Positions 43,457-59,012 of a stretch of DNA of 59,315 nt are shown piece after piece. The notes under the pieces are model-generated. The model saw nothing but the letters and a program-made list of their open reading frames with translations. It ran no database searches and was not told where the DNA came from. The DNA is from Burkholderiales bacterium (GTDB lineage Bacteria; Pseudomonadota; Gammaproteobacteria; Burkholderiales; SG8-39), in assembly GCA_023383795.1 (NCBI GenBank), contig JAHDYJ010000016.1:1-59315 (forward strand), read 5' to 3'. Made by a program: the position numbers and the translations under genes. Each line of letters starts with the position of its first letter. Position 1 is the first letter of the stretch.

Positions 43457-43459
43457 GGC

Positions 43460-43912
43460 TCAGCCCTCCTGCGCCGCGCGCTCGATCGCGCGCACGATGC
43501 GGTTGTACGTGCCGCAGCGGCACAGGTTGCCGTTCATGTGCTGCACGATCTGCGCGCGCGTCGGACGCTTGTTCTTCGCGAGCAGCGCTGCCGCCTGCAT
43601 GATCTGGCCGGACTGGCAGTAGCCGCACTGCGGCACCTGCTCGGCGATCCACGCCCGCTGCAGCGGGTGATCGCCGGTCGCCGACAGTCCCTCGATGGTG
43701 GTGACCTTCCTGCCGCGTGCCGCGGACACCGGCGTCACGCAGGCGCGGACCGGCTGGCCGTCGACGTGGACCGTGCACGCGCCGCACTGGGCCGCGCCGC
43801 AGCCGTACTTGGTGCCGGTGTAGCCGAGCTCGTCCCGGATCACCCAGAGAAGCGGTGTGTCGGGCGGCTGCTCGGAGCGCGCGTCCTCGCCGTTGACGGT
43901 GAACTGGATCAT
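43460..43912 (-). CDS. 2Fe-2S subunit of the molybdenum hydroxylase
   Basis: A 150-residue iron-sulfur subunit of the CoxS/IorA type. The plant-ferredoxin site [16 protein letters not shown] and the second cluster site [10 protein letters not shown] with CRCGTYNRI are complete. It lacks a signal of its own and would be exported together with the Tat-tagged large subunit. The large-subunit gene starts three bases after its stop codon. Confidence 0.93.
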
Positions 43913-44982: not shown

Positions 44983-45897
44983 TCACCGCAGCGCATCGCG
45001 CAGACGCTCGGGATCGACCCGGACCGAGACGCCGGCCCGCTCTTCCTGCAGCGTCATCGCGATGCGTGCGTCGCGCTCGCCCCAGCCGCGCGCCACGGCC
45101 TCGCCGAGCTCGGCCAGCGCGATCTCGGCCACTGGCACCGGCACGCCGCAGGCGGCCGCCAGATCGCGGACGAGCGTCATGTCCTTGTGTGCGAGGCTCA
45201 GCGCGTGCGCCGGCGGATCGTAGCGGCCCGGCAGGAACTGCTCGGCCAGCCGGTCGAAGGTGCGCTTGCGCCCGAGCGCTCCCTGGCGCAGCGCGCGAAA
45301 GAGCGCGAGCGGCTCGACCCCCGCCTTGACGCCGAGCGTGAAGGCCTCCGCGAGCGCGGTCTGCACCGAGAAGCTCGCGCAGTTGTGCGCGAGCTTCGCC
45401 GCCGTTCCGGCGCCGATCGTGCCGACGTGCAGCGGATCGCTGCCGACTGCCGAGAGCACGGGCCGGTACTGCTCGAAGGCCTCGCGATCGCCGCCGACCC
45501 ACACCGCGAGCGTGCCGTCGGCGGCGGCCTGCGGCCCGCCGCTCACGGGCGCGTCGAGCATGCGTACCCCGCGCGCGGCGCACAGATCGTGCAGCCACCG
45601 CACGGTGGCGGGCGCGTTGGTCGTGAGGTCGAACCACGCCGCGCCCGGGCGCATCGCCGCGATCAGGCCGCCGGCGGCGACCGCCTCGACCTCGGGAGGG
45701 CCCGGCAGCGAGGTGAAGACGAGCTCCGCGTCGCGCGCCGCGTGCGCTGCGGTCTGCGCCCACTCGGCACCGGCCGCGGTCAACGGCGCCGCGGCCGCGT
45801 GCCGCGCGTCGTTGACACCGAGCGCGTGGCCTGCGCGCAGCAGATTGGCCGCGATCGGGCGGCCCATGGCCCCGAGACCGATGAATCCGATTCTCAT
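44983..45897 (-). CDS. 3-Hydroxyisobutyrate dehydrogenase-family NAD(P) oxidoreductase
   Basis: A 304-residue beta-hydroxyacid dehydrogenase. It has GFIGLGAMGRPIAANLL at the start, the substrate-binding DAPVSGGPQAA, and the catalytic Lys in GAGTAAKLAHN. The family includes 3-hydroxyisobutyrate, tartronate semialdehyde and 6-phosphogluconate relatives, and the substrate cannot be fixed here. It is downstream of, and probably co-transcribed with, the small carboxymuconolactone decarboxylase-family gene (33-base gap). Confidence 0.85.
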   Translation of the reverse strand: MRIGFIGLGAMGRPIAANLLRAGHALGVNDARHAAAAPLTAAGAEWAQTAAHAARDAELVFTSLPGPPEVEAVAAGGLIAAMRPGAAWFDLTTNAPATVRWLHDLCAARGVRMLDAPVSGGPQAAADGTLAVWVGGDREAFEQYRPVLSAVGSDPLHVGTIGAGTAAKLAHNCASFSVQTALAEAFTLGVKAGVEPLALFRALRQGALGRKRTFDRLAEQFLPGRYDPPAHALSLAHKDMTLVRDLAAACGVPVPVAEIALAELGEAVARGWGERDARIAMTLQEERAGVSVRVDPERLRDALR

Positions 45898-45930
45898 CGC
45901 GCGTCCTCCCCGCGGGGCGGCGGCGGCGCC

Positions 45931-46260
45931 TCAGTCGCGCGCCTGGAACACTTCCTTGGCGATCTGCGCCGCGTGGATGCCGGTCGGCCAGCCCGAGTAG
46001 AAGGCGAGGTGCGTGATCATCTCGCCGATCTCTTCGCGGGTGACGCCGTTGTCCAGCGCGCGCCAGAGGTGGCCGCGCAGCTGATCGGTGCGATACAGCG
46101 CGACCAGCGCGGCGACCGTGATCAGGCTGCGATCGCGCTTCGAGAGCCCGGGGCGTTCCCACACGTCGCCGAACAGCACGCCGTCCGTGAGCTCGCCGAG
46201 CTTCGGCACGATGTCGCGAACCTTGCTGATCCCCGAGGGCGGCGGGGCTGCTGTGCTCAT
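45931..46260 (-). CDS. Small carboxymuconolactone decarboxylase-family protein
   Basis: A 109-residue single-domain protein with the family core RDRSLITVAALVALYRTDQL and EIGEMITHLAFYSGWPTGI. There is no CxxC motif, so it resembles true 4-carboxymuconolactone decarboxylases rather than the redox-active AhpD. ATG 46260 has GGAGG seven bases upstream. It is divergent from the thioredoxin gene that opens the selenoprotein gene string. Confidence 0.85.
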   Translation of the reverse strand: MSTAAPPPSGISKVRDIVPKLGELTDGVLFGDVWERPGLSKRDRSLITVAALVALYRTDQLRGHLWRALDNGVTREEIGEMITHLAFYSGWPTGIHAAQIAKEVFQARD

Positions 46261-46413
46261 GAGGGCCTCCATGGCTGGATCTTCGGGAGAAACGCCGGTC
46301 CGCGGTCCGCACGGCATCGCGAACCGCCTCGCTCGCGCGCGTTCGCGCACAGGAGGCCGAAGTGTAGCCGGCGGCAGCGGCCCCGGGGGATGCGTATGCG
46401 GGCGGAAACAATC

Positions 46414-46430: not shown

Positions 46431-46489
46431 CCGCGTAGCACTCCGCGGGTCAACGTCGACATGTGCCCAGGGATTCCGGTCGGCCGCGA

Positions 46490-46517
46490 TTGACCCCCGG
46501 CACCGGGTTCCGATAAG
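46490..46517 (+). promoter_or_regulatory. Predicted promoter of the thioredoxin-selenoprotein gene string
   Basis: TTGACC (46490-46495) and GATAAG (46512-46517) are separated by 16 bases, 30 bases before the thioredoxin ATG. Five and four of six consensus bases match. Confidence 0.5.
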
Positions 46518-46547
46518 GTGGGGACTGTCCGCCACCCGGGAGGCCGC

Positions 46548-46877
46548 ATGGCCGGCGCGCAGTTTGCGGAGTTCGACGAGGGCGACTTCGACGCCCGGGT
46601 GCTGCAGCGGCGCGGGGTCACGGTGGTCGACTTCTGGGCGGAGTGGTGCGCGCCCTGCAGGCAGATGGCGCGGATTCTCGGCGAGTTGGCGGCCGAGCTT
46701 CCGTCCGAGGTCGTGATCGGCAAGGTGGACGCGGACCGCAACCGCGCGCTGGTGGACCGCTACGGGGTGCGCGGGATCCCGGCGCTGCTGATCTTCAAGG
46801 ACGGGACGCTGGTCGACGCGCGCACCGGCGTCGACCGCAAGCAGGTGCTGAAGAAGGCGATCGAGACGCACGTCTGA
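46548..46877 (+). CDS. Thioredoxin
   Basis: A 109-residue cytosolic thioredoxin with the active site WCAPC in VDFWAEWCAPCRQM and the cis-proline in RGIPALLIFKDG. ATG 46548 follows GGGAGG. The AhpD-like selenoprotein gene starts 11 bases after its stop, with the ribosome site of that gene overlapping the stop codon. The first position in this gene string suggests that it supplies electrons to the selenoproteins behind it. Confidence 0.93.
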   Translation: MAGAQFAEFDEGDFDARVLQRRGVTVVDFWAEWCAPCRQMARILGELAAELPSEVVIGKVDADRNRALVDRYGVRGIPALLIFKDGTLVDARTGVDRKQVLKKAIETHV

Positions 46878-46888
46878 GGAGTCCGCAC

Positions 46889-47506
46889 ATGCCGAACATC
46901 ACGATGCTCGACATCGACGAGCTGAAGCAGACGAAGCTCAAGCCCTACATCGAGAAGTGCCTCCAGCACCGCGCGCCCGATCCGGGCTTCCACGCGATGA
47001 TGGGCCACAACATCGACCTCGCCGAGGCGATGTTCGTGGCCTGGGACACGGTGTTCAACACCGGCCGCGTCAGCCACACCCTGAAGGAGATCATCCGCGT
47101 GCTGCTGTCGCGGATGGCCTCCTGCAGCTATTGAGGGAACGTCCGGTCCGCTTCGGCGAAGCGGCAGGGCCTGACCGAGGAGCGCCTGGACGAGGGCATC
47201 AACAACTACCAGGCGAGCCCGCACTTCAGCGCGGCCGAGAAGGTCGCGATCCGCTACGCGGACCTGATGGCCACCGACCCGGATGCGATCGACGCGGCGT
47301 TCTACGCGCGGCTGCGCGGGCACTACTCCGAGGAGGAGATCGTCGAGCTCGGCGCGTTCATCGGCTTCAACATCGGCTACCACACGTTCTTCGGCACGCT
47401 GAAGTTCTATCCGATGTTCGCGCCCGACGGGCGGCTGGTGAGCCAGGAGGAGTCCGAGCGGATCTACGGCGCGGCGCCGGTGTCGCTCGCCGCGGCGGAC
47501 GCATGA
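46889..47506 (+). CDS. Selenoprotein: AhpD/carboxymuconolactone decarboxylase-like with CxxU
   Basis: 205 residues if TGA at 47132-47134 is read as selenocysteine (U82). The frame is open on both sides of the TGA and the two halves join into one domain: RVLLSRMASCSY-U-GNVRSASAK. In cysteine-type AhpD homologues this site is a CxxC on the same helix, so U82 replaces the second redox cysteine and C79 is its partner. A hairpin (47148-47164) stands 20 bases after the TGA. SelA, SelB and tRNA-Sec are encoded in the same island. Automatic annotation would split it into two pieces. It overlaps the next gene by ATGA. Likely role: disulfide or peroxide reduction with a peroxiredoxin partner. Confidence 0.9.
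47148..47164 (+). promoter_or_regulatory. SECIS-like hairpin of the AhpD-like selenoprotein
   Basis: CCGCTTC-GGC-GAAGCGG forms a perfect 7-bp stem with a 3-base loop starting with G. Twenty bases lie between the TGA and the loop, inside the 16-37 base window known for bacterial SECIS elements read by SelB. Confidence 0.7.
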
Positions 47507-48114
47507 GCGCGAAGACGCACGTCGCGCCGCTCGCGCTCGACGAGATCGCCGATCCGGAGCTGCGCGCGCTCGTCGAGCGCTGCGCCGGGCTCGGCGTGCC
47601 GGACACGCTCTTTCCGCGCATCCTCGCCCGCGTGCCGAACTATGCCAAGGCGATCCTGCGCGCGATGCTGCACTCGCACTACGAGGGCAACGTCGACCAC
47701 GGGCTGAAGGAGATCATGCGCGTTCAGCTCGCGCGCTTCGCCGGCGATCCCTATTTCGCCGGCCTGCGCTCGCAGCGGGCGCTCGCCGCGGGGCTGGACG
47801 AGGCGACGGTCGCGGCGGGCTCCGGCGACTACGACGACGATCCGCGCTTCAGCGAGGCCGAGCGCGTCGCGCTGCGCTATTCCGACCAGATGTACCTGGA
47901 CCCGAACAAGGTCGACCGGGCGTTCTACGACGAGATGAAGCGCCACTTCAGCGAGGCCGAGATCATGGAGCTCGGCGCGTTCATCGCGCTGCACTACGGC
48001 ATGCAGGTGTTCATGCGCACGCTTGGGCGCGCGGCGCAAGGCCGATCGGACGATGTGGCGGCGCAGCGTCGGGACGGGCGCGACGGGGTTGTGTCGGCCG
48101 ACGGTTGCGATTAG
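47503..48114 (+). CDS. Carboxymuconolactone decarboxylase-like paralogue without the redox motif
   Basis: A 203-residue homologue of the preceding selenoprotein, alignable along most of its length (HGLKEIMRVQLARFA; FSEAERVALRYSDQMYLDPN; ELGAFIALHYGMQVF). At the CxxU site it has D82 and F85 (GDPYFAG), so it cannot do the same thiol or selenol chemistry. Its ATG overlaps the selenoprotein stop, indicating coupled, perhaps equimolar, synthesis. A heteromeric partner or structural subunit is the simplest reading. About 25 residues at the C-terminus are low-complexity and charged. Confidence 0.85.
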   Translation: MSAKTHVAPLALDEIADPELRALVERCAGLGVPDTLFPRILARVPNYAKAILRAMLHSHYEGNVDHGLKEIMRVQLARFAGDPYFAGLRSQRALAAGLDEATVAAGSGDYDDDPRFSEAERVALRYSDQMYLDPNKVDRAFYDEMKRHFSEAEIMELGAFIALHYGMQVFMRTLGRAAQGRSDDVAAQRRDGRDGVVSADGCD

Positions 48115-48170
48115 ATTGGCGGCGGCGCGCGGCGGCCGCCGCCGCGCGCGCCCGGACCGAGGACGGAGGA

Positions 48171-48647
48171 ATGGCAGAGAAGCTCAACGCAGGAGACGCG
48201 TTTCCCCGCCTGACGATCGATCTGGTCGATGGCGGAAAGCTCGACCTCCCGGAGGGGATCGACGCGAAGTACCGCGTCGTCCTCTTCTACCGCGGCCACT
48301 GGTGACCGTACTGCCGCCGGCAGTTGGCCGGCTTCGAGTTCTGGAAGGCGCAGATCGCGCGCGCCGGCGCGAAGGTGGTCGCGGCCAGCGTCGACCCGAT
48401 CGACAAGGCGAAGGAAGTCGCGGCGGGCGTCTCGTTCCCGATCGGCTACGGCGCGACCCGCGAGATGGCCGACGCGATCGGCGCGTGGTGGGAAGACAGG
48501 CGCGGCATCATCCAGCCCTCCGAATTCCTGATCAACGCGGACGGCAAGGTGATGAGCTCGAGCTACAGCTCGGGTCCGCTCGGCCGCATCGAGCCGATGG
48601 ACGTGGTCCGGTCGATCGACTTCTACGAGGCCCAGCAGAAGAAGTAG
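48171..48647 (+). CDS. Selenoprotein: cytosolic peroxiredoxin-like protein with UxxC
   Basis: 158 residues if TGA at 48303-48305 is read as selenocysteine (U45). The sequence runs VVLFYRGHW-U-PYCRRQLAGF; in redoxin relatives this is the GHWCPYC active site of the AhpC/TSA superfamily, so U45 sits at the peroxidatic position with C48 as partner. The domain continues without break (VSFPIGYGATREMADAIGAW, FLINADGKVM). There is no signal peptide. ATG 48171 follows GGAGG very closely. A hairpin with an AGUUG loop follows the TGA. It is the last plus-strand gene before the convergent tRNA-Sec. Confidence 0.92.
48316..48332 (+). promoter_or_regulatory. SECIS-like hairpin of the cytosolic peroxiredoxin-like selenoprotein
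   Basis: GCCGGC-AGTTG-GCCGGC pairs over 6 bp, with 16 bases between the TGA and the loop; the loop has G at its second position. The same loop and spacing recur at 53419, with one U-A to C-G exchange in the stem. Confidence 0.78.
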
Positions 48648-48663
48648 ACCGGATCGCCAACGG

Positions 48664-48694
48664 GCGGGCGCCGCAGCGAAGCCCCGGCGCCCGC
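48664..48694. terminator. Hairpin between the convergent selenoprotein and tRNA-Sec genes
   Basis: gcgggcgccg and cggcgcccgc are exact complements over 10 bp with an 11-base loop. It lies between the end of the selenoprotein gene and the 3' end of the tRNA gene. No T-run, but it can serve both directions. Confidence 0.55.
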
Positions 48695-48706
48695 GTGTTC
48701 GGGGGA

Positions 48707-48802
48707 TGGCGGAAAAGAGTGGGAGTCGAACCCACCAGGGACGTCTGACGCCCCTCACCGGATTTGAAGTCCGTGCGCCCCACCGGGGAGCGATTCCTTT
48801 CC
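48707..48802 (-). tRNA. selC: tRNA-Sec (anticodon UCA)
   Basis: A 96-base gene including CCA. The acceptor stem has 8 bp (GGAAAGGA with TCTTTTCC), the length specific for bacterial tRNA-Sec. The anticodon region GGACTTCAAATCC matches that of E. coli selC and gives anticodon TCA. The extra arm is long (AGGGGCGT-CAG-ACGTCCCT, 8 pairs), and the T arm is GTGGG-TTCGACT-CCCAC. The outer part of the anticodon stem seems bulged (CACGGA against TCCGGTG). It starts 30 bases after the selB stop on the same strand, so selA, selB and selC may be one transcript. Confidence 0.96.
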
Positions 48803-48832
48803 GTGCCGCGGTTCTTCGTTGCGGCTCCGATT

Positions 48833-50779
48833 CTACCGGGCGCGCGTGCCGCCGTCCGCGAACGCCTCGTGGGCGGCCTTCAGCACGATCCGCGCGTCGC
48901 CGATGCGCCGCGTGAAGCGCACGCGGTCGAAGTAGTCGAGCACGTCGATCGAGAGGTTGCGGCCCAGGCTGCTCGCGTCGCGGAACTGCGCCGCCGTGAG
49001 GCGGCGGTCCGCGCTCGACTCGGCAAGCCGCTGCGCCACCGCGGCGAGCCGCGCGACCGTGCGCGGCAGGAAGAAGCGCGTGTCCGAGACCCGCACCGCG
49101 AGGCCGTGACGCGCCGCGCGGTCGAGCACGCCGTGGACGGCCTTCGGCTGCGCGCCGATGCGGGCGGCGATCTCGGCGACGGTCGGCGGACGCTGCTCCT
49201 CGGCCTCCAGCACCGCGGCAATTCGCTGCCATACCGTCTCCTGCGCGGGCGCGAAGCCCGGGCGGTGCGCCGGCAGCCGCATCTCCGCGCCGGTGCGCGC
49301 GAGCGCGCCGTCGCGCACGAGCTCGGCGGCGACGGCGACGACCACCGCGCGCGGCAGGCGGCCGCCTTCCAGGATGCGATCCTCCGGCGGACCCGGCGAG
49401 TCGGGCAGCCGTCGATGCCAGGCGGCGACTGTCTCCAGCGCGCGCGAGCGCAGGGCGTTCCAATGCGCCGGCGTGAACCCGAGCTCCGCCGCGCCGTCCC
49501 ACACGCGGTGCATCGGCACGCGTTCGAAGAGGGCGGCGGTCTCGCGCTCGGTCAGGTTGCGGCCGGCGGCGAACCGGGTGAGATCGAGGCCGCTCGCGGC
49601 CGCGTCGGCGAGCCCCGCGAGCCGCGCCTGAAGCGCTCCGGCCGGATCGGCGGCCTCCATCGCGCGCAGCGCCGCCAGCCGCTCCGGCCTCGCGCGCCCG
49701 CGCGGCGGGGCGTGCACGTCGATGACGCGACCGCCGCCGAGGGTGCGGCGCGCCGACTGGTCGCGCAGGATCAGCCGATCGCCGTGCACCGCGCCGATCG
49801 GGCGGTCGAGGACGAGCTGCGCGAGCCCGGACGCGCCGGGCTCGATCGCGTCGGCTTCGAGCGTCGCGACGCGCGCGGTGGTCTCGGCCGCGCCGAGATG
49901 GACGTGCACCGGCGTCCAGTGCCTGAGCGGCTGCGCCGCCGCCGCCATGACGCGGACGCGCGCGTCGATCTTGCGCGCCGGCGGCGGCAGCGCGCCGCGC
50001 ACGATCCAGTCGCCGCGCGCGATCCCGGCGTCCTTCAGTCCTGCGCCGGCGAGGTTCAGCGCGCAGCGCTCGCCGGCGCGGCCGCGCTCGGCCCGCGCGC
50101 TCTGCGCATGGATGGTGCGCACGCGGGCGTCGACGCCGGCGACGAGCGCGCACACGGCGTCGCCGGTGGCGACCTCGCCGGAGAAGACGGTGCCGGTGAC
50201 GACCAGGCCGGCGCCGGCGACCGTGAATGCGCGGTCCACCGCCAGGCGGAAGTTGCCGTCGGCGGCACGGCGCGGCAGGGCGGCCGCGATGCGGCGCAGC
50301 TCGACGTCGAGCGCGTCGATGCCCGCACCCGTGACCGCGGAGACCGGAAACACCCGTGCGGCCGCGAGCGTCGTCGGCGCAAGCAGGCGCGCGATTGCCG
50401 CCTGCACCTCGGCCGTCCGCGCCGCGGGAACGCGGTCGATCTTGGTCAGCGCGACCAGACCATGGCGCACGCCGAGCAGATCGAGGATCGCGAGGTGCTC
50501 CAGCGTCTGCGGCATCGGTCCGTCGTCCGCCGCCACGACGAAGAGCGCCGCGTCGATGCCGGCCACGCCGCATAGCATGTTGTGCACGAAGCGCTCGTGG
50601 CCCGGCACGTCGACGAACCCGATCGTTCCCGCGGCCGCGTCCGGCAGATACGCGAAGCCGAGATCGATGGTGAGGCCGCGGCGCTTCTCGTCCGGCAACC
50701 GATCGGTGTCGACGCCGGTCAGCGCCTTCACCAGCAGCGTCTTGCCGTGGTCGATGTGCCCGGCGGTGGCGACGATCAT
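48833..50779 (-). CDS. selB: Selenocysteine-specific elongation factor SelB
   Basis: A 648-residue GTPase that brings Sec-tRNA to UGA codons marked by a SECIS hairpin. G-domain motifs are GHIDHGKT (7-14), DVPGHE and TKID. Two beta-barrel domains follow, with FTVAGAGLVVTGTVFSGEV, and the C-terminal winged-helix repeats that bind SECIS RNA end in SLGRNLSIDVLDYFDRV. Its ATG overlaps the selA stop (ATGA). It ends 30 bases from tRNA-Sec. Length and order match E. coli SelB. Confidence 0.97.
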   Translation of the reverse strand: MIVATAGHIDHGKTLLVKALTGVDTDRLPDEKRRGLTIDLGFAYLPDAAAGTIGFVDVPGHERFVHNMLCGVAGIDAALFVVAADDGPMPQTLEHLAILDLLGVRHGLVALTKIDRVPAARTAEVQAAIARLLAPTTLAAARVFPVSAVTGAGIDALDVELRRIAAALPRRAADGNFRLAVDRAFTVAGAGLVVTGTVFSGEVATGDAVCALVAGVDARVRTIHAQSARAERGRAGERCALNLAGAGLKDAGIARGDWIVRGALPPPARKIDARVRVMAAAAQPLRHWTPVHVHLGAAETTARVATLEADAIEPGASGLAQLVLDRPIGAVHGDRLILRDQSARRTLGGGRVIDVHAPPRGRARPERLAALRAMEAADPAGALQARLAGLADAAASGLDLTRFAAGRNLTERETAALFERVPMHRVWDGAAELGFTPAHWNALRSRALETVAAWHRRLPDSPGPPEDRILEGGRLPRAVVVAVAAELVRDGALARTGAEMRLPAHRPGFAPAQETVWQRIAAVLEAEEQRPPTVAEIAARIGAQPKAVHGVLDRAARHGLAVRVSDTRFFLPRTVARLAAVAQRLAESSADRRLTAAQFRDASSLGRNLSIDVLDYFDRVRFTRRIGDARIVLKAAHEAFADGGTRAR

Positions 50780-52209
50780 CTGCTGCGCGTGCCGGCCGGG
50801 TCGAGGCTCCCGAGCTGCGCGATGAACGACTCGACCGCGGCGTCCTCGAGGCAGCGGCAGTCGAGCAGGTAGGCGTCTTGCTGGACCCGGCCGATGACCG
50901 GCACCGGCAGCGCCCGGAAGGCGGCCGCGATGCGCTTAAGCGCGCCGCCGCGCGCCTTGGCGGCGAGCGGCGTCACGGCCACCGCGACGCTCGCCACATG
51001 CTGCGACGGCGCGGCGCCGGAGCCAATCTCGCTCTCGCACTCGACCACGCCGACCGCGGCCATGCCGCGCAGCGCCGGCGCGAGCGCCGCGCTCACGCGC
51101 TCGGCGGTGCGGCGGATCTCGCCCTGCGGACGGGTCAGCGCGCGCAGCGTGGGCAGGCGCTCGCGCAGCCGATCGGGGTCCGCGGCGAGCGCCAGCACCG
51201 CGGCGAGCGCGGCGACGCGCATCTTGTCCACGCGCAACGCGCGCTTCAGGGGGTTGCGCTTGATGAGCGCGACCAGATCGCCGCGGCCGACGATGATCCC
51301 GGCCTGTGGCCCGCCGAGCAGCTTGTCGCCGCTGAACGTGACGAGATCGGCGCCGTGGGCGATCGTCTCCCTCGCCGTGGGCTCGTACGGCAGGCCGAAG
51401 GCACGCAGGTCGACCAGCGTTCCGCTGCCGAGGTCCACGACGAAGGGCACGTTCCGCTCGCGGCACAGCCGGGCGAGCTCGCCCTCCGGCGCCGACGCCG
51501 TGAAGCCCTGTATGACGTAGTTGCTGGTGTGGACCTTCATGACGAGACCGGTGCGCGGCCCGATCGCCGCCGCGAAGTCGGCGAGGTGCGTGCGGTTCGT
51601 GGTGCCGACCTCCCGCAGCCGGCATCCCGCCCGCGCCATGATGTCGGGCAGGCGGAACTCGCCGCCGATCTCGATCAGCTCGCCGCGGGAGGTCGGAACC
51701 TCCTTGCGCGCGGCGAGCGTGTTCAGGACGAGCAGCACCGCGGCGGCGTTGTTGTTGACGACCGTCGCGGCCTCGGCGCCGGTGAGCCGGCACAGAGCGC
51801 GCTCGAGGTGGGCGTCGCGGTCGCCGCGCCGGCCGGTCTCGAGATCGTACTCGAGGTTGCTCGCGTCCGCGGCGACGAGCGCCATCGCGTCGATCGCCTC
51901 GCGCGGCAGCAGCGCGCGGCCGAGGTTCGTGTGCAGGACCGTACCGGTCAGATTGAACACGCGCCGCAGCGAAGGCGCCGCCTGCTCGGCGAGCCGCCCG
52001 GCCGCATCCTGGATCAGATCGTGGACGGTTGGCGTGCGCTCCGCGGCGCTGCCGCGCAGCGCCGCGCGTCTCGCCGCGAGCGCGTCGCGGACCGCTTCGA
52101 CGACCGGCGCGCGGCCGAAGCGCCCGATGAGCGTCACGCACGCCTGCTCGCGCAGCAAGAGGTCGACCGACGGCAGCGCGATCGTCGGGCGTGCGGACGT
52201 CCGGGCCAT
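50776..52209 (-). CDS. selA: L-seryl-tRNA(Sec) selenium transferase SelA
   Basis: A 477-residue PLP enzyme that converts Ser-tRNA(Sec) to Sec-tRNA(Sec) with selenophosphate. The PLP lysine is K296 in TFSGDKLLGGPQAG, and the RVFNLTGTVLHTNLGRALL block near residue 83 is diagnostic. ATG 52209 gives a normal N-terminus; the longer open frame overlaps the SDR gene. Selenophosphate synthetase (SelD) is not in the window and must be encoded elsewhere. Confidence 0.97.
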   Translation of the reverse strand: MARTSARPTIALPSVDLLLREQACVTLIGRFGRAPVVEAVRDALAARRAALRGSAAERTPTVHDLIQDAAGRLAEQAAPSLRRVFNLTGTVLHTNLGRALLPREAIDAMALVAADASNLEYDLETGRRGDRDAHLERALCRLTGAEAATVVNNNAAAVLLVLNTLAARKEVPTSRGELIEIGGEFRLPDIMARAGCRLREVGTTNRTHLADFAAAIGPRTGLVMKVHTSNYVIQGFTASAPEGELARLCRERNVPFVVDLGSGTLVDLRAFGLPYEPTARETIAHGADLVTFSGDKLLGGPQAGIIVGRGDLVALIKRNPLKRALRVDKMRVAALAAVLALAADPDRLRERLPTLRALTRPQGEIRRTAERVSAALAPALRGMAAVGVVECESEIGSGAAPSQHVASVAVAVTPLAAKARGGALKRIAAAFRALPVPVIGRVQQDAYLLDCRCLEDAAVESFIAQLGSLDPAGTRSR

Positions 52210-52237
52210 GCGCTCGTTCCGGCGGCAGGCGGCCGCG

Positions 52238-53008
52238 TCAGCTGCCCGCCACCCAGCCGCCGTCGACGAACAGCGTGTGTCCGGTGACGAAATCGGAGGC
52301 CTGGCTCGCGAGGTAGATCGTCGCGCCGACCAGATCGTCCGGGACCGCGACGCGTCCGAGCGGAATGCGCGAGACGATCCGCTCGAGGCTCGCGCCCGAC
52401 AGCAGTTCCGCCCGGCTCGGCGTCGCGACCGCGGTCGGCGCAAGCGCATTCACCCGGATGCCGTCGGCGGCCCACTCCAGGGCGAGCGCCTCGGTCAGGT
52501 GCGAAACGCCGGCCTTGATGCCGCCGTAGACCGCGCGGCCCTTGATGATGCTGCGGCTGAACGTGGAGCTCAGGTTGATGATCTTGCCGTAGCCGCGCGC
52601 GCGCATCAGCCCGCCGATGATCTGGCAGGAGAAGAAGAGGCCCTTGAAGCCGACGTCGAGCATCCGATCCCACTCGTCTTCCTGCATGTCCCACGCGGGC
52701 TTCGTGACCGTGAAGCCGGCGGCGTTGACGAGGATGTCGGCGCGGCCGAAGCGCTCGACCACGAAGTCCTTCAGCCGCCGGATGTCGCCGACGCGGCTGA
52801 CGTCGACCGCGCACGCCCCGGCGCGCCGCCCGGTCTGCGCGATCTCGGCGCGAAGCTCTTCCAGCGCCGCCTCGCGCCGCGCGGTGACGACGACGTCGGC
52901 ACCCGCCGCGGCGAGCCCGAGGGCGAGGCCGCGTCCGATGCCTTCGCTGGCGCCGGTGACCACCGCCACCCTGCCTTTCAAGCCGAACTGCGCGAGCGGA
53001 TCGTTCAT
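52238..53008 (-). CDS. SDR-family oxidoreductase upstream of selA
   Basis: A 256-residue short-chain dehydrogenase with TGASEGIG, NAAG, the catalytic Ser in NLSST and YGGIK, ending in FVTGHTLFVDGGWV. It starts at ATG 53008 with GAGGAGGC upstream and ends 28 bases before selA on the same strand, so it may be read together with selAB. A link to selenium metabolism is not evident; it may simply be the neighbour whose promoter drives the sel genes. Confidence 0.85.
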   Translation of the reverse strand: MNDPLAQFGLKGRVAVVTGASEGIGRGLALGLAAAGADVVVTARREAALEELRAEIAQTGRRAGACAVDVSRVGDIRRLKDFVVERFGRADILVNAAGFTVTKPAWDMQEDEWDRMLDVGFKGLFFSCQIIGGLMRARGYGKIINLSSTFSRSIIKGRAVYGGIKAGVSHLTEALALEWAADGIRVNALAPTAVATPSRAELLSGASLERIVSRIPLGRVAVPDDLVGATIYLASQASDFVTGHTLFVDGGWVAGS

Positions 53009-53199
53009 GTGCGTTGCCTCCTCGAGCCGGATGCCCGCATCGCCACCCTGAATCGGCTCCCCGAATCGGCGCGCCGATCCGGAATAGCGCGCGCGGTGCG
53101 TGCGTGACGCGTTGGCGCGAGTTTACCGGGATCGTGCCCCGCGGCGCCGGGGAAACCTTTCGCATCCAGGCTGGTCCACCCCGTACCACCAAGCGTCAG

Positions 53200-53772
53200 A
53201 TGATCCGCCGTCTCGTTCCGCTGCTGCTTGCCGCGCTCGCGGCGGGCGCACCCATCGCGCTTCCCGCCGCAACGCCCGCGGCGCCGGTGGGCGTCGGCGA
53301 CCTCGCGCCGGATTTCACGCTGGCCGACCAGGACGGACGCCGCCACACGCTGTCGGTGGAGCGCGGCAAGCGCGCGGTCGTCCTGGTCTTCTATCGCGGC
53401 CACTGGTGACCGTACTGCGGTCGGCAGTTGGCCGACCTGCGGACGCTCATCCGGCCCGACGAGCCGGCGCGCCTTTGGGCGGTCAGCGTCGATTCTGCCG
53501 CCCAGAGCAAGGCGTTCGCGGCCGAGATCGCGGCGGACGGCCGCGGGCGCGTTGCGTTCGGCCTCCTGTCCGACCCCGACCACCGGGTCATCGACGCCTA
53601 CGGGCTGCAGGATCCCCGCTATGCGCGCCTCGGCCGCGAGGGGATCCCGTATCCGGCGACCTTCGTCGTCGACCGCGACGGGCGCATCGCCTGGGCGAGG
53701 ATCGACAAGGACTACACCCGGCGTCCGCCCATCCGCGAGGTCCGCGCTGCGCTCGATGCCTTGACCCGCTAG
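53200..53772 (+). CDS. Selenoprotein: exported peroxiredoxin-like protein with UxxC
   Basis: 190 residues if TGA at 53407-53409 is read as selenocysteine (U70). A signal peptide (RRLVPLLLAALAAGAPIAL) precedes a redoxin domain: DLAPDFTLADQDGRRHTL, VVLVFYRGHW-U-PYCGRQLADL, GLLSDPDHRVIDAYGL and PYPATFVVDRDGRIAW. U70 takes the place of the peroxidatic cysteine and C73 is the partner. The protein should act in the periplasm. The SECIS-like hairpin shares its loop with that of the cytosolic relative. It is divergent from the SDR-selAB genes. ATG 53200 fits the signal peptide. Confidence 0.92.
53419..53437 (+). promoter_or_regulatory. SECIS-like hairpin of the exported peroxiredoxin-like selenoprotein
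   Basis: GGTCGGC-AGTTG-GCCGACC pairs over 7 bp, with 16 bases between the TGA and the loop. Relative to the hairpin at 48316 the stem has a compensatory U-A for C-G exchange while the loop is unchanged. Confidence 0.8.
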
Positions 53773-53801
53773 CAAGCTGTCGCCGAGCCGCGGCGCTTGC
53801 T
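53771..53801 (+). terminator. Hairpin at the end of the exported selenoprotein gene
   Basis: agcaagc and gcttgct are exact complements with a further cgcc/ggcg pairing inside; the left arm begins within the stop codon. There is no T-run after it. Confidence 0.4.
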
Positions 53802-53840
53802 GCGCTGCAGCGTCGCCGCGCCGGCGCGGCGCGCGATTGT

Positions 53841-53852
53841 TTGGCCGGCCAA
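53841..53852. promoter_or_regulatory. Palindromic operator candidate TTGGCCGGCCAA
   Basis: A 12-base perfect palindrome that ends 10 bases before the -35 box of the Liv importer promoter. Its position suits a repressor or activator site. No regulator gene is next to it. It lies in the 347-base gap before the binding protein gene. Confidence 0.5.
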
Positions 53853-53862
53853 TTATCGCTGG

Positions 53863-53892
53863 TTGACAAGCATGCGCGGAGGTCTCTAGAGT
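53863..53892 (+). promoter_or_regulatory. Predicted promoter of the Liv importer genes
   Basis: A perfect -35 TTGACA (53863-53868) and TAGAGT (53887-53892, four of six) are separated by 18 bases. The start point near 53899 gives a leader of about 220 bases before the binding protein gene. Confidence 0.6.
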
Positions 53893-53994
53893 CTGCGAGA
53901 ACGCCGGACAGGCGTGGCTTCGCAAGCGTTCCATCGTCACAAGAGACGCCGGCGCGAGCAGAATCGCAGGGCGCACCACCGAGGAGGATCCATC

Positions 53995-54141
53995 GTGCAG
54001 GCGTCACCGCCCGGCCGGCCGGGCAGGGCGCCCGCCGGGCGTCCGCATATCCGGGGAGTTCCAACCCGCCGTCTCGGCCCATCCGCACCGGGTCGGGGGC
54101 ATTGTCGAAGGAGGCAACCGTGTATCGCAGAACAGCTCTGA
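53995..54141 (+). CDS. Possible leader ORF before the binding protein gene
   Basis: A 48-codon GTG-initiated ORF with a very strong GAGGAGG site seven bases upstream. It is rich in Gly, Pro and Arg and ends inside the start of the binding protein gene, in another frame (overlap 22 bases). No homologue is recognised; translation could couple to the downstream gene, or the Shine-Dalgarno may be chance. Confidence 0.25.
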   Translation: MQASPPGRPGRAPAGRPHIRGVPTRRLGPSAPGRGHCRRRQPCIAEQL

Positions 54142-55319
54142 AACTGGCGGCGGCCGCGGCGCTCGCAGGCGCGCTGCCGCTCGGCTTCACGCACGCCGCC
54201 GATCCGATCAAGATCGGCGCGGTGGCGCCGAAGACCGGCCCCCTCGCCGGTGGCGCGGCCATCACGCACTGGCCGAACGTCCAGCTCTGGGTGCACCAGG
54301 TGAACGAGCGCGGCGGCCTCAGGATGAGGGACGGCAGCCGGCGCAAGGTCGAGCTGATCGAGTACGACGACCGGACCAACCCGGGCGAGACCATCAAGGC
54401 GGTCGAGCGGCTCGCCACCCAGGACAAGGTCGACTTCATCGTCGCGCCCTACGGCACCGGCCTCAACCTCGCCGCGGCGCCGGTGTTCGCCAAGTACGGC
54501 TATCCGCAGATCGCCTGCACGTCGGTCACCGACAAGGTTCCCGAGCTGACGAAGCGCTATCCGAGCATCTTCTTCACTCTCGGAACGACCACCGCGTTCG
54601 CGAACTCGGTCGCGGAGGTCCTCAACAAGCTGCGCGCCGAGGGCAAGATCGGGAACCGGGTCGCGATGGTCAACGTGGCCGACGCGTTCGGCATCGAGCT
54701 CGCCGAAGCAGCGCGTCCGATCTTCAAGACCGCCGGCCTCGAGATCGTCTACGACCGGTCCTACCCGCTCGGCACCCAGGACCTGTCGCCGATCGTCAAG
54801 GGGGCGAGGGCCGCCAACCCGGACGCCTTCGTCGCCTGGTCGTACCCGCCCGACACCTTCGCGATCACCGAGCAGTCGAAGATCGAGGGCCTCAACGTGA
54901 AGGCCTACTACACGGCCGTGGCGACCGCGTTCCCCGCCTACCGCGGCAAGTTCGGCAAGTCGATCGAGGGTCACCTCGGCGCCGGCGGCGTCAACCTCGA
55001 CACGCCCGAGATGAAGGCCTATCTCGCCGCGCACAAGAAGGTGACCGGCAAGGACGCCGACTATTGGGCGAGCCCGGTGACCTACGCCGGCCTGCAGGTG
55101 CTCGAGCAGGCGATCGAGGCGGTCGGCACCGACCGCAAGGCGGTGACCGAGTACATCAAGAAGGCCACGTTCAAGACGGTCATGGGCCACTGGAAGTTCG
55201 TCAACCAGTCGATCCACGAGTTCTGGACCGTCGGCCAGTGGCAGAACGGCCTGTTCCACGGCGTGTCCTCGACCGGCCTGCCCGGCGCGAAGCCGGTGAT
55301 CGCCAAGCCCGGCTGGTAA
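54120..55319 (+). CDS. Liv-type ABC transporter periplasmic binding protein
   Basis: A 399-residue receptor of the branched-chain amino acid type (peripla_BP_6). GTG 54120 has a GAAGGAGG site. The N-terminus YRRTALKLAAAAALAGALPL resembles a Tat or Sec signal; mature protein starts near ADPIKIGAVAPKTGPLAGG. Typical family segments follow (VELIEYDDRTNPGETIKAVE, YPLGTQDLSPIVKGARAANP). In such organisms these proteins often bind aromatic acids rather than amino acids, so the ligand is open. An intrinsic terminator follows before the permease genes. Confidence 0.92.
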   Translation: MYRRTALKLAAAAALAGALPLGFTHAADPIKIGAVAPKTGPLAGGAAITHWPNVQLWVHQVNERGGLRMRDGSRRKVELIEYDDRTNPGETIKAVERLATQDKVDFIVAPYGTGLNLAAAPVFAKYGYPQIACTSVTDKVPELTKRYPSIFFTLGTTTAFANSVAEVLNKLRAEGKIGNRVAMVNVADAFGIELAEAARPIFKTAGLEIVYDRSYPLGTQDLSPIVKGARAANPDAFVAWSYPPDTFAITEQSKIEGLNVKAYYTAVATAFPAYRGKFGKSIEGHLGAGGVNLDTPEMKAYLAAHKKVTGKDADYWASPVTYAGLQVLEQAIEAVGTDRKAVTEYIKKATFKTVMGHWKFVNQSIHEFWTVGQWQNGLFHGVSSTGLPGAKPVIAKPGW

Positions 55320-55352
55320 GACGCGCGCCAGCCACACTGCAGTGTCCGAAGG

Positions 55353-55389
55353 CGCCCCGGTGTGAAGTGCCCGCACCGGGGTGTTTTTT
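55353..55389 (+). terminator. Intrinsic terminator after the binding protein gene
   Basis: CCCCGGTG and CACCGGGG form an 8-bp stem with an 11-base loop, followed by tgtttttt. It lies 35 bases after the stop and 15 before the first permease start, so it probably gives more binding protein than permease. Confidence 0.8.
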
Positions 55390-55404
55390 CCGCCTGACGC
55401 GGCG

Positions 55405-56271
55405 ATGGACATCCTGATCACCGGCATCCTGCTCGGGGCGACCTACTCGCTGATCGCGATGGGGCTCACGCTGCAGTACGGCGTGGCCCGCATCATGAAC
55501 CTCGCCAACGGCGAGATGCTGGTCGCCGGCGCTTTCGGCGCGTTCTGGGTGTTCACCGCCCAGCAGGCGAGCCCGTTCGCCGCTGCGCTCGTCGTGGTGC
55601 CCGGCGCGTTCGCGCTGAACTGGCTCATCTACCGCTACCTGCTGCGGCCGCTCGTCCGGCGCGCGAAGAACCGCGGCATGCTCGAAGTCGACAGCATCCT
55701 CGCCACCTTCGGCATGAGCTTCGTCCTGGTCGGGATCATGCTGATGGTGTTCGGCGGGGGATACTTCACCTATTCGTATCTCGCCGAGCCGTTCGAGATC
55801 TTCGGCAGCCCGTTCGCGCTGAACCGCGTGGTCGCGTGCCTGGTCGCGGTGGCGATCTCCGGGCTGCTCTATTGGGGCCTGAACGGCACGCGCACCGGCA
55901 TGGCGCTGCGCGCGCTCGCGGTCGACCCGGCCGCCGCGGGGCTGGTCGCGATCGACGTGCCGCGCATGTCCGCGTTCTCCTTCGCGCTCGGCGGCGCGGT
56001 GACCGCGGCTGGCGGCATCGTGCTCAGCACCTTTCTCACGATGGACGCCTCGATCGGCGTCGTCTTCACCATGAAGGCGCTGATCATCGTGATCATGGGC
56101 GGCGTCGGCGACGTGCGCGGCGCGATCGTTGCCGCCTTGATCCTCGGGCTCGCCGAGACCGCCGTCGCGAGCCTGATCGACCCGGGGCTCACGCTCGCCG
56201 CGGCCTACCTGCTCTTCATCCTGGTCCTGCTGCTCCGGCCCGAGGGGCTCTTCGGGAGACGCCAGTCGTGA
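55405..56271 (+). CDS. Liv-type ABC transporter permease (LivH-like)
   Basis: A 288-residue inner-membrane permease with about eight helices. The start ATG 55405 gives MDILITGILLGATYSLIAMG, the typical opening, and the segment YGVARIMNLANGEMLV follows. The cytoplasmic coupling loop NGTRTGMALRALAVDP, which contacts the ATPase, is present. Overlaps the next permease by four bases. Confidence 0.93.
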   Translation: MDILITGILLGATYSLIAMGLTLQYGVARIMNLANGEMLVAGAFGAFWVFTAQQASPFAAALVVVPGAFALNWLIYRYLLRPLVRRAKNRGMLEVDSILATFGMSFVLVGIMLMVFGGGYFTYSYLAEPFEIFGSPFALNRVVACLVAVAISGLLYWGLNGTRTGMALRALAVDPAAAGLVAIDVPRMSAFSFALGGAVTAAGGIVLSTFLTMDASIGVVFTMKALIIVIMGGVGDVRGAIVAALILGLAETAVASLIDPGLTLAAAYLLFILVLLLRPEGLFGRRQS

Positions 56272-57206
56272 CCCGTGCGGAGGCCAGGAACCTCGCCCTC
56301 GCCGCCGCGGCGTTCGCGCTGCTCGCGTTCCTGCCGTTCCTGAAGGACAGCGGCTACCTCCTGTCGGTGTCCGTCTCGATCGCCATGTACACAGTGCTCG
56401 CCACGTCGTGGGCGCTGTTCTCGGGCCCGACGCACTACATCTCGCTCGCGACGGCCGCGTTCTACGGGCTCGGCGCCTACGTCGTGGCGGCGGGCATCGG
56501 CACGATCTCCTATCCGCTGCTGCTCGTGCTGGCGGGCATCGCCGGCGCGGTGCTGGCGCTCGCGGTCGGGGTCACGACGCTGCGGCTGTCGGGCGTGTAC
56601 TTCGTGATCTTCACGCTCGGCCTCGCGGAGCTGATTCGCCAGGTGGTGACCTGGGTGCAAAACAACCTGACCGGCAGCCGCGGGATGTACGTCCTCACCG
56701 AGATCACCGAGCGGATCATCTACTGGGAGCTGCTCGGCCTCGCGGCGCTGGTGTACCTGGTCGGCTGGCTCGTCGCGCGCTCGCGGCTCGGGTTCGCGCT
56801 GCGCATCATCGGCAACGACGAGCTGGTGGCCGCGCACGTCGGCATCAACTCGGCCGCGGCGAAGCTGATCCTGTTCGTGATCTCGGGCGTGTTCGCGGCG
56901 GTGGTCGGCGCGGTGATGGCGCCGCGCTACACCTACATCGAGCCGAGCATTGCCTACTCGCCGGAGCTGTCGTTCCAGGTGGTGATCATGGCGTTGATCG
57001 GCGGCGCGCATCGCCTGTGGGGCCCGCTAGTCGGCGTGATCCCGTTCGCGCTGCTGTGGGAGCTGATCGCGGCGCGCTTTCCGACGCAGACCGTTCTCCT
57101 GCTCGGCGTTGCGTTCCTGCTGATCGTGTACTTCATTCCGCACGGCGTGGTCGGCCGCATCGAGTCCGCGCTCGAGCGCCTGCGGCGGGGAACCCGCCGT
57201 GGCTGA
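56268..57206 (+). CDS. Liv-type ABC transporter permease (LivM-like)
   Basis: A 312-residue inner-membrane permease. The start is GTG 56268, overlapping the previous stop (gtga). Family motifs are GPTHYISLATAAFYGLGAY and the coupling loop SRLGFALRIIGNDELVAAHVG. Ends eight bases into the first ATPase gene, a sign of coupled translation. Confidence 0.92.
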   Translation: MTRAEARNLALAAAAFALLAFLPFLKDSGYLLSVSVSIAMYTVLATSWALFSGPTHYISLATAAFYGLGAYVVAAGIGTISYPLLLVLAGIAGAVLALAVGVTTLRLSGVYFVIFTLGLAELIRQVVTWVQNNLTGSRGMYVLTEITERIIYWELLGLAALVYLVGWLVARSRLGFALRIIGNDELVAAHVGINSAAAKLILFVISGVFAAVVGAVMAPRYTYIEPSIAYSPELSFQVVIMALIGGAHRLWGPLVGVIPFALLWELIAARFPTQTVLLLGVAFLLIVYFIPHGVVGRIESALERLRRGTRRG

Positions 57207-57933
57207 GCGGACCGTGCTCGACATCCAGAGCGTCGCCAAGCGCTTCGGCGGCCTGCTCGCGGTGGACCAGCTGAGCTTCGCGGTGCGCGAGAACGAGGTG
57301 CTCGGGCTGATCGGTCCGAACGGCTCGGGCAAGACGACGGTGCTCAACCTGATCTCCGGGGCGTTCAAGCCCACCGCCGGCGACATCTATCTCGACGACC
57401 GGCTGATCACCGACCGGCCGGCGCGCCACATCGCGCGCGCCGGCGTCGGGCGCACCTTCCAGCTCGTGCGCGTCCTGCCCTCGCTGACGGTGCTCGAGAA
57501 CGTGATGGCCGGCGCGGTGTTCGGCCACAAGCGCCTGTGGGGGCGCGAGGCGCGCAAGTACGCCGAGCGCCAGCTCGAGCGGGTCGGCATGGCGCACGCG
57601 ATCGGCATGCCGACCGCGGCGCTCACCTACATCGACGAGAAGCGGGTCGAGCTCGCGCGCGCGCTCGCCTCCGACCCGCGCGTCCTGCTGCTCGACGAAT
57701 GGCTGGCCGGCCTCAACCCGACCGAGCTGCAGACCGGCATCGCGCTGATCCGGAGCCTGCGCGAGGAGGGCCGCACCGTCGTGCTCGTCGAGCACGTCAT
57801 GGACGCGATCCGCAGCCTGTGCGACCGGTGCGTGGTCATGAGCGGCGGGGTCAAGATAGCCGAGGGCACGCCGGCCGAAACGCTCGCCGACCGCGAGGTG
57901 ATCCGCGCCTATCTCGGAGACGACGATGCTTGA
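57199..57933 (+). CDS. Liv-type ABC transporter ATPase (LivG-like)
   Basis: A 244-residue ABC ATPase. Walker A is GPNGSGKTT near residue 35 and Walker B LLLDEW near 170. The signature region reads LTYIDEKRVELARALASDP, which departs from the usual LSGGQ; the family LivG proteins normally have LPYGxQ, so TYIDEKR is a variant. The start is GTG 57199. Overlaps livF by eight bases. Confidence 0.9.
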   Translation: MAERTVLDIQSVAKRFGGLLAVDQLSFAVRENEVLGLIGPNGSGKTTVLNLISGAFKPTAGDIYLDDRLITDRPARHIARAGVGRTFQLVRVLPSLTVLENVMAGAVFGHKRLWGREARKYAERQLERVGMAHAIGMPTAALTYIDEKRVELARALASDPRVLLLDEWLAGLNPTELQTGIALIRSLREEGRTVVLVEHVMDAIRSLCDRCVVMSGGVKIAEGTPAETLADREVIRAYLGDDDA

Positions 57934-59011
57934 GTGCCGCGAGCTCACGGTCGCCTACGGGCAGCATCGGGCGCTCGACGGCGTCTCGCTCGGGATCGCG
58001 CCGGGCGAGATCGTCGTGATCCTCGGCGCCAACGGCGCCGGCAAGAGCACGCTCCTGCGGGCGATCGCCGGGCTCGTGCCGCCGGCCGCGGCGAGCGGGA
58101 TCGCGATCGGCGGCCGTCCGGTCGCCGGCCTGCCGCCGCACGAGATCGTCGAGGCGGGCCTCGCGCTGGTGCCGGAGGGGCGCCAGCTCTTCGGCGATCT
58201 CAGCGTCGAGGAGAACCTCCTCCTCGGCGCCTATGCGCGGCGCGCGCGCGCGGCGGAGCGGGAGAATCTCGAGCGCGTGCTCGCGCTCTTCCCGAAGCTC
58301 GCCGAGCGCCGCGCGCAGGTCGCACGCACGATGAGCGGCGGCGAGCAGCAGATGGTCGCGATCGGGCGCGCGCTGATGTCGGCGCCGTCGGTCCTGATGC
58401 TGGACGAGCCTTCGCTCGGGCTGTCGCCGAAGCTGTGCACCGCGCTCTTCAGGACGCTCGCCGAGGTGCGCCGGACCGGCGTCGGCATCCTGCTCGTGGA
58501 GCAGAACGCGCGCCAGGGTCTCGCGATCGCCGACCGCGGCTATCTTCTCGAGAACGGCCGCATCGTCGGCGAAGGCCCGGCGGCGGCCCTGGCGCAGGAT
58601 CCGGCGGTGCAGAAGGCGTACCTCGGCGGCGCCGCGGCGACGGCGACCGGACCGGAGCACGCCGTCGAGCGCCCGAGCGCGCAGGCGGCCGCGCCCGCGG
58701 TCTCGGCGCCGCCGGCGGCGATGCCGAGATTCGTGCCGACGCCGCGGGCCGATACGCTGATTCCGCAGTCGATCGACGAGCTCGCGCGCCGCGCGGGCGA
58801 GATCCAGACCGAGCACGTCCGCGCGGCGCGCGGCGCGCGCGCCACCGCCGCGCCGATCGGCGCCGCGCACGGCATCGGCACCGATACGCTGAGCGAGGCG
58901 CTCGCCAGGATCGAGGCCGCGGCGGCGAGAGCGCGCATCCGCGAACCCGAGCCGAAGCCGCGGCCGGCTTCCGAGCGGGGCGGCGCGTCGGACGCAGACA
59001 AAGGAGAGTGA
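57926..59011 (+). CDS. Liv-type ABC transporter ATPase (LivF-like) with a long C-terminal extension
   Basis: A 361-residue protein. The first 235 residues are a normal LivF ATPase: Walker A GANGAGKST, signature MSGGEQQMVAIGRAL, Walker B VLMLDEPSLGLSP and a His/Gln-loop region VEQNARQGL. The remaining 125 residues are an extension: an Ala/Pro-rich linker (about 236-270) and then two amphipathic, probably helical stretches (SIDELARRAGEIQTEH and LSEALARIEAAAARARI). LivF proteins usually end near 240, so the tail is unusual; its role is unknown. The aldehyde dehydrogenase gene begins one base after the stop. Confidence 0.92.
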   Translation: MLECRELTVAYGQHRALDGVSLGIAPGEIVVILGANGAGKSTLLRAIAGLVPPAAASGIAIGGRPVAGLPPHEIVEAGLALVPEGRQLFGDLSVEENLLLGAYARRARAAERENLERVLALFPKLAERRAQVARTMSGGEQQMVAIGRALMSAPSVLMLDEPSLGLSPKLCTALFRTLAEVRRTGVGILLVEQNARQGLAIADRGYLLENGRIVGEGPAAALAQDPAVQKAYLGGAAATATGPEHAVERPSAQAAAPAVSAPPAAMPRFVPTPRADTLIPQSIDELARRAGEIQTEHVRAARGARATAAPIGAAHGIGTDTLSEALARIEAAAARARIREPEPKPRPASERGGASDADKGE

Positions 59012-59012
59012 C

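Follow-up and report, generated by a model that had tools for sequence, protein, structure and literature searches.

Two kinds of thiol-redox selenoprotein are already in print, peroxiredoxin-like (Prx-like) proteins with a UxxC motif and AhpD-like proteins with a CxxU motif (PMC2398784, PMC1088965, PMC13188914; all papers are cited for those of their sections that were available), and one published ocean read carries Prx-like 1 beside AhpD-like 2 (PMC2398784). For the Alphaproteobacteria, Betaproteobacteria and Pseudomonadales, selABC genes have been described with fdhA as the only client (PMC1794560; similarly PMC5029168). The locus analyzed here, from a Burkholderiales bacterium, is a compact selenocysteine (Sec) island at positions 46548-53772 of a stretch of 59,315 nucleotides, the whole of which is referred to as the window. 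Open reading frame (ORF) analysis and profile searches found tRNA-Sec, selB, selA and a thioredoxin gene in it, together with three ORFs that each contain one in-frame TGA at a redox position, as an earlier note on this DNA had claimed. The three thiol-redox ORFs are predicted to encode selenoproteins, and one of them, AhpD-U, probably forms a single two-part enzyme with the product of the following gene, CMD2. The earlier note had also supposed the packing of such genes with the decoding genes to be undescribed; in view of the ocean read this is partly wrong. The features of the island are as follows.

46548..46877, + strand: thioredoxin (WCAPC), the proposed electron donor (PF00085, 90.3 bits; cut-off 23.5)
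46889..47506, + strand: AhpD-U, an AhpD-like gene with predicted Sec82 in C-S-Y-U, TGA at 47132-47134 (PF02627, 31.3 bits)
47148..47164, + strand: predicted Sec insertion sequence (SECIS) hairpin of AhpD-U, CCGCUUC GGC GAAGCGG (pairing 98.4%, codons frozen)
47503..48114, + strand: CMD2, which is paralogous to AhpD-U but has neither Cys nor Sec at the redox site; its ATG overlaps the AhpD-U stop
48171..48647, + strand: Prx-like 1, AhpC/TSA family, HWUPYC, TGA at 48303-48305 (PF00578, 72 bits)
48316..48332, + strand: predicted SECIS hairpin of Prx-like 1, GCCGGC AGUUG GCCGGC (pairing 98.8%, covariation)
48711..48802, - strand: tRNA-Sec (selC), anticodon TCA (Rfam, 73.7 bits, gathering score 47; also found by ARAGORN)
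48833..50779, - strand: selB, Sec-specific elongation factor with winged-helix domains (TIGR00475, 417.8 bits, cut-off 242.25; PF09106, PF09107)
50776..52209, - strand: selA, L-seryl-tRNA(Sec) selenium transferase (TIGR00474, 575.1 bits; cut-off 267.9)
52238..53008, - strand: SDR-family oxidoreductase within the island, in the related genome G002 present without the island (PF13561, 199.6 bits)
53200..53772, + strand: Prx-like 2, AhpC/TSA family, HWUPYC, TGA at 53407-53409 (PF00578, 99.6 bits)
53419..53437, + strand: predicted SECIS hairpin of Prx-like 2, GGUCGGC AGUUG GCCGACC (minimum-energy structure, z -2.20)

CMD2 was absent from the list in the earlier note. Both Prx-like proteins exceed the gathering score of PF00578 (26 bits) and thus belong to the peroxiredoxin superfamily; the N-terminus of Prx-like 2 resembles a signal peptide by eye. 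AhpD-U exceeds the gathering score of PF02627 (23 bits), which places it in the CMD/AhpD-like family, and remains below the cut-offs of the YciW-related (seleno)protein model NF053654 (69.4 vs 310 bits) and the peroxidase-related model TIGR01926 (41.7 vs 81.8 bits). CMD2 reaches 15.3 bits with PF02627, under the gathering score of 23, and the thioredoxin obtains 94.9 bits with TIGR01068, slightly below the cut-off of 96.8.

The genome assembly has a size of 4.93 Mb in 234 contigs and is 100% complete and 4.19% contaminated. Absence of selD from the genome had been named in the earlier note as fatal to its reading, but the gene is present on a separate contig (C206; 429.2 bits, cut-off 125) as an intact ORF of 352 amino acids, and the objection thereby falls away. 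The G + C content of this contig is 70.4%, compared with 70.8% for the window. With SelA, SelB, tRNA-Sec and SelD, the Sec-decoding trait is complete in the genome. The gene following selD (L001 1178-2561) looks by eye like a pyridine nucleotide-disulfide oxidoreductase. No formate dehydrogenase of the FdhA-N type (TIGR01553) exceeded the cut-off in this genome (7 of 17 first-look candidates were scored; the best, which has no stop, reached 196.1 of the required 814.2 bits), other types having had no dedicated search, and to this extent the absence of formate dehydrogenase asserted earlier is borne out. Among 98 genomes of the family, three contain FdhA-N over the cut-off, all three with one TGA. 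The count of three predicted selenoproteins applies to the island, since no exhaustive search for further ones was made elsewhere in this genome.

The AhpD-U/CMD2 pair

The genomes of GTDB species were scanned for AhpD-U with an alignment of seven members as query and with patterns that exclude the Sec codon. The 48 loci obtained belong to Beta- and Alphaproteobacteria and to metagenome-assembled genomes titled Tectomicrobia and Nitrospinae, some of these titles being clearly mislabelled. AhpD-U is immediately followed by CMD2 in 43 of the 48 loci, which is 43 of the 44 with room for it (L095, L129, L131 and L132 end at a contig end and were left out), and in all six family genomes that contain a close AhpD-U; a thioredoxin gene lies directly upstream in 14 of the 48. 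Within the order, the pair was found in 7 of 399 genomes at an E value of 1e-30, with up to five first-look candidates scored per genome. The distances in the two genes correlate (r = 0.876 over 42 loci, a value reached by 0 of 2000 permutations). In a tree of 14 AhpD-U, 14 CMD2 and 24 other CMD relatives, CMD2 formed one clade (support 100/100), and AhpD-U and CMD2 together were split at 96/90 from 21 of the 24 other relatives, the remaining three, long-branched rows falling inside. Furthermore, 17 of 234 listed database proteins comprise the C-terminal part of AhpD-U and the whole of CMD2 in one frame; one of these joined ORFs comes from a SAR324 record (P0016).

These observations bear on the alternative that CMD2 is an independent enzyme which is merely co-transcribed with AhpD-U. 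In its favor, CMD2 is read in the window from a separate start and in a separate frame, and its residues Glu70 and Arg89 are invariant, which indicates that the CMD2 pocket is under selection. The near-constant adjacency, the co-divergence, the shared clade and the joined ORFs favor one complex instead, so that an independent CMD2, although the strongest of the rival explanations, appears rather unlikely.

When the genes around the loci were clustered, no partner other than CMD2 and thioredoxin was shared across classes; genes had been called with a simple script, and antisense ORFs contaminate some of the clusters. Thirteen loci have an SDR gene near the pair, and eight loci of the Rhodospirillales have a gene that by eye is HMGL-like. 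In one locus (L115 10001-11893), AhpD-U, CMD2 and a second AhpD-U stand in a row, both AhpD-U genes containing the TGA. Two database proteins look like crossovers of AhpD-U and CMD2, one with an AhpD-U start and a CMD2 end and the other reversed (P0021, P0049).

AlphaFold2 models of AhpD-U (with Cys in place of Sec; mean pLDDT 78.7) and CMD2 (mean pLDDT 87.3) both adopt the AhpD-like fold. Residue conservation was read from an alignment of 44 of the 48 AhpD-U sequences that spans the site (A5; L095, L128, L129 and L131 were dropped as cut or short) and from one of 43 of 44 CMD2 sequences (A6; L125 was dropped by the filter), and positions were paired with those of PA0269, whose relay consists of Glu36, Cys48, Tyr50, Cys51 and His55 (PMC3141380), by equal spacing and by the alignments. 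In AhpD-U, Glu67, Cys79, Tyr81, Sec82 and Arg86 are each present in 44 of 44 sequences. In CMD2, Glu70, Asp82 and Arg89 are kept in 43 of 43, position 85 is Phe or Ser, and the redox place is without Cys and Sec in all 43. Since the Cys/Sec pair is kept in AhpD-U and both residues are lacking in CMD2, one half would be capable of selenol-thiol chemistry and the other not.

In the proposed mechanism, AhpD-U and CMD2 would form a hetero-oligomer of one redox half and one motif-less half. Sec82 would attack and Cys79 resolve, giving a selenenylsulfide, and the adjacent thioredoxin would re-reduce AhpD-U; CMD2 may serve as the half that gives structure or binds a ligand and takes no part in redox chemistry. 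The presumed substrate is a peroxide or a disulfide, with an organohalide as a further candidate. Prx-like 1, with its UxxC motif, may be a further part of this thioredoxin-fed defence; Prx-like 2 may act outside the cytoplasm.

The organohalide leads to a second alternative, in which AhpD-U would act as a reductive dehalogenase like Bmp8 but dependent on selenium, its Cys/Sec pair taking the halogen from the substrate, as thyroid deiodinase does. The debrominase Bmp8 is the closest solved sequence of both AhpD-U and CMD2, which makes dehalogenation a live rival, and its CxxC aligns with the CxxU of AhpD-U. Bmp8 contains no selenium, however, and its identity is about 20%; to our knowledge, no partner protein of Bmp8 has been reported. 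A dehalogenase seems somewhat less probable still than a CMD2 acting on its own, and the two-part thiol-redox enzyme is preferred to both.

The island and its recurrence

In G001, a genome of the same genus, the whole gene order recurs, including the SDR gene, Prx-like 2 and the ABC-transport flank, with 90% DNA identity over window positions 46472-59315. Another member of the genus, G003, contains thioredoxin-AhpD-U-CMD2 and, after a gap of 6.2 kb, Prx-like 1-tRNA-Sec-SelB up to where the contig stops; its SelA is at the end of a different contig, and the SDR gene and Prx-like 2 are located elsewhere. Outside the family, G038 has the core SelA-SelB-tRNA-Sec-Prx-like 1-CMD2-AhpD-U. The arrangement Prx-like 1-tRNA-Sec-SelB-SelA was found in G019, G124 and the family member G112. 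SelA exceeds the cut-off in 41 of the 98 family genomes. Among 20 other selA neighborhoods chosen from these 41 genomes, some of them on short contigs, Prx-like 1 occurs in one (G112) and AhpD-U and FdhA in none. Seen from AhpD-U, sel genes are near in only 4 of the 48 loci within the stretch analyzed (L085, L094, L108 and L112), three of which represent G003, G038 and G001. The island proposed in the earlier note is thus real and repeated, as a whole in G001, in parts in G003 and as a core in G038, yet it is local to a few lineages and not general to the AhpD-U/CMD2 pair. In L108 (4370-11133), thioredoxin-AhpD-U-CMD2 is preceded, about 2 kb upstream, by a more distantly related betaproteobacterial selA-selB-tRNA-Sec (50% and 34% identity), perhaps an independent linkage.

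The occurrence of the same core in another family, and the lack of SelA, a close AhpD-U and a close Prx-like 1 in G002 of the same genus, could point to a mobile unit that spreads the use of Sec along with its client genes. The G002 pattern fits gain or loss of these genes as a set, but is a single case, and no clean empty site was seen there, the SDR gene and the ABC-transport flank being on separate contigs. Furthermore, selD is located elsewhere in the genome, the genes are scattered in G003, and the G + C content of the island (72.5%) is close to that of the window (70.8%). AhpD-U matched 19 plasmid and 2 phage records, none of them with more than 60% identity; the best 8 of the 19 plasmid matches and the 2 phage matches show 28-36%. 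A mobile element was rejected as a candidate because of these distant matches and the unshifted G + C content, the portability ascribed to the trait in the earlier note is not upheld, and spread of the island as a unit is regarded as improbable.

Two groups of neighboring genes lie to the left of the island. Between the left SDR gene and the thioredoxin gene, a hydroxyisobutyrate-dehydrogenase-like gene and a PcaC-like CMD gene (44983-46281) are present that are missing at this place in G001, and genes for the large and small subunits of a molybdenum hydroxylase were recognized by eye at 41225-43912.

Recoding of the TGA codons

The Sec place of AhpD-U is TGA in all 47 loci that cover the site (L132, which ends before the Sec codon, was left out), and SelA is over the cut-off in 43 of the 48 genomes that carry AhpD-U. 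Prx-like 1 contains one TGA in 9 of 9 matches of at least 60% identity, the own sequence included, among 61 genomes, and TGA in 22 of 22 matches of at least 51% identity among the 48 AhpD-U-carrying genomes, one match also having a TAG; three of the 48 genomes are also among the 61. The TGA of Prx-like 2 is likewise present in G001 and G003. Two relatives of Prx-like 1 with about 40% identity, one each in G166 and G148 (L155, L156), contain two in-frame TGAs.

Protein databases were consulted through listings of 120 proteins each, out of 590, 1120 and 1311 (the last for Prx-like 1). Among the listed AhpD-U relatives that truly span the Sec place, six have Trp and one has Cys (P0027); the remaining rows of the alignment represent CMD2 domains, with Phe, or are frame-shifted. 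Of the 120 listed Prx-like 1 relatives, 42 reach the Sec place, with Trp in 32, Cys in 8, Arg in 1 and a gap in 1, and the other 78 begin downstream of the Sec codon. The Trp residues presumably arose when gene callers applied genetic code 4 and translated TGA accordingly. Database entries named peroxiredoxin with a length of about 107 amino acids begin at the Leu codon that lies in the presumed SECIS hairpin (48324-48647); many public entries of this name are thus fragments that start inside a presumed SECIS element.

Bacterial SECIS elements are hairpins located just 3' of the UGA, with an apical loop about 16-37 nucleotides away and a G among the first two loop bases. The hairpins predicted for AhpD-U and Prx-like 1 have these properties, their loops GGC and AGUUG starting at base 24 and base 20, respectively, counted from the U of UGA. 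In AhpD-U, codons +6 to +9 after the TGA are GCT TCG GCG AAG in 48 of 48 sequences, whereas neighboring codons vary even where the residue (Gly, Asn, Val, Arg, Leu or Glu) is invariant. Its hairpin is paired in 98.4% of the alignment cells, 10 of which are double changes (identical rows were counted once, leaving 45 of 48), and three of five covariation measures lie above every shuffle. Pair 18-32 is CG in 28, UA in 10 and UG in 7 sequences, the UA form accompanying a replacement of Arg (CGG) by Gln (CAG). The Prx-like 1 hairpin is paired in 98.8% of the cells, with 13 double-change cells in three pairs; shuffles were as high in 0 of 500 cases for cells, types and score and in 7 of 500 for pairs, and slid versions of the hairpin scored far lower. 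Prx-like 2 has the same loop, AGUUG, and its stem is compensated between this genome and G003. Recoding of the TGAs is therefore well supported by their retention in relatives and by hairpins with compensatory changes; decoding as Sec is the predicted outcome. A reading of the TGAs as normal termination codons, as sequencing errors or as marks of pseudogenes, which the annotation of these genes as fragments in databases might suggest, is highly improbable given this retention, the frame open on both sides of the codon, the covarying hairpins and the full Sec machinery.

Several results weigh against a Sec-dependent two-part enzyme of AhpD-U and CMD2. As regards Sec, the folding energies of the three hairpins (z -0.66, -0.54 and -2.20) do not stand out in two cases, so that a SECIS call by folding energy alone was rejected, and the Prx-like 1 sequence, folded singly, prefers a different hairpin. 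For AhpD-U, the numbers of double-change pairs (1) and of further pair types (3) are not above the shuffles, 498 of 500 being as high, and SelA was not found in 5 of the 48 carrier genomes. As regards the pair, L127 has room for CMD2 but lacks it after AhpD-U, 34 of the 48 loci have no upstream thioredoxin, and AhpD-U was not resolved as one clade, a single origin appearing in 13% of the bootstrap trees. The joined ORFs were seen only as database proteins, all 17 of which start after the Sec codon. In G458 (L190), the best match and the only case looked at in DNA, the two genes are in the same frame with six stops between them in a short, repeat-like linker; G458 is therefore not a fusion, and fusion at the DNA level was rejected for it. 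Finally, AhpD-U departs from the Glu, Cys-x-x-Cys and His relay of AhpD-like peroxidases (PMC3141380) by Arg in place of His in 44 of 44 sequences, which leaves a peroxidase activity of the AhpD kind unsure.

Comparison with described systems

A literature search found, in the available parts of the papers, no motif-less partner, no joined ORFs and no betaproteobacterial selABC with solely thiol-redox neighbors, which by itself does not prove novelty. The AhpD-like or CMD-domain selenoproteins of the Sargasso Sea and Global Ocean Sampling (GOS) data share the fold family and the CxxU motif with AhpD-U (PMC1088965, PMC2398784), but their descriptions, in the sections available, do not mention the motif-less partner, the joined ORFs or the His-to-Arg change in the relay that mark AhpD-U and CMD2. 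Prx-like 1 resembles the Prx-like thiol:disulfide oxidoreductase selenoproteins in its AhpC/TSA family and UxxC motif (PMC13188914); unlike these as there described, it adjoins tRNA-Sec and selB in several lineages. The SAO and Tso operons likewise comprise several selenoprotein genes per neighborhood, but of other families than those of the island, as far as their descriptions allow comparison (PMC13188914).

In architecture, sestrins appear nearest to AhpD-U and CMD2, judging by fold matches of the models. They have a two-half design in which the motif-less half binds leucine. No sestrin profile was among the Pfam matches up to an E value of 10 for AhpD-U, CMD2 or three joined ORFs, and sestrin membership by sequence was rejected; in contrast to the single gene of a sestrin, AhpD-U and CMD2 have separate genes in the window, and selenium is predicted. 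One might tentatively see in the pair a bacterial, selenium-based counterpart of sestrins, that is, a split enzyme of two AhpD halves with a Sec center and a dead twin that senses a ligand or grips the substrate, fed by thioredoxin, distributed across Alpha- and Betaproteobacteria and in a few lineages encoded beside the decoding genes, although this extended view is doubtful.

Why bacteria pay for Sec in thiol-redox enzymes is an open question, for which the AhpD-U/CMD2 pair offers a clean test case, because only one of the AhpD-U relatives examined has Cys at the Sec place, selection on the hairpin is visible, and a near-constant twin without the redox pair is present. Like the selABC-fdhA clusters (PMC1794560), the island is compact and has client genes adjoining selABC. 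The client of those clusters is fdhA; here, with no FdhA-N over the cut-off in the genome, the neighbors are thiol-redox genes. Contrary to the picture of 2006, as given in the available sections of that paper (PMC1794560), the present locus and its relatives thus add betaproteobacterial Sec loci whose neighboring clients are other than formate dehydrogenase.

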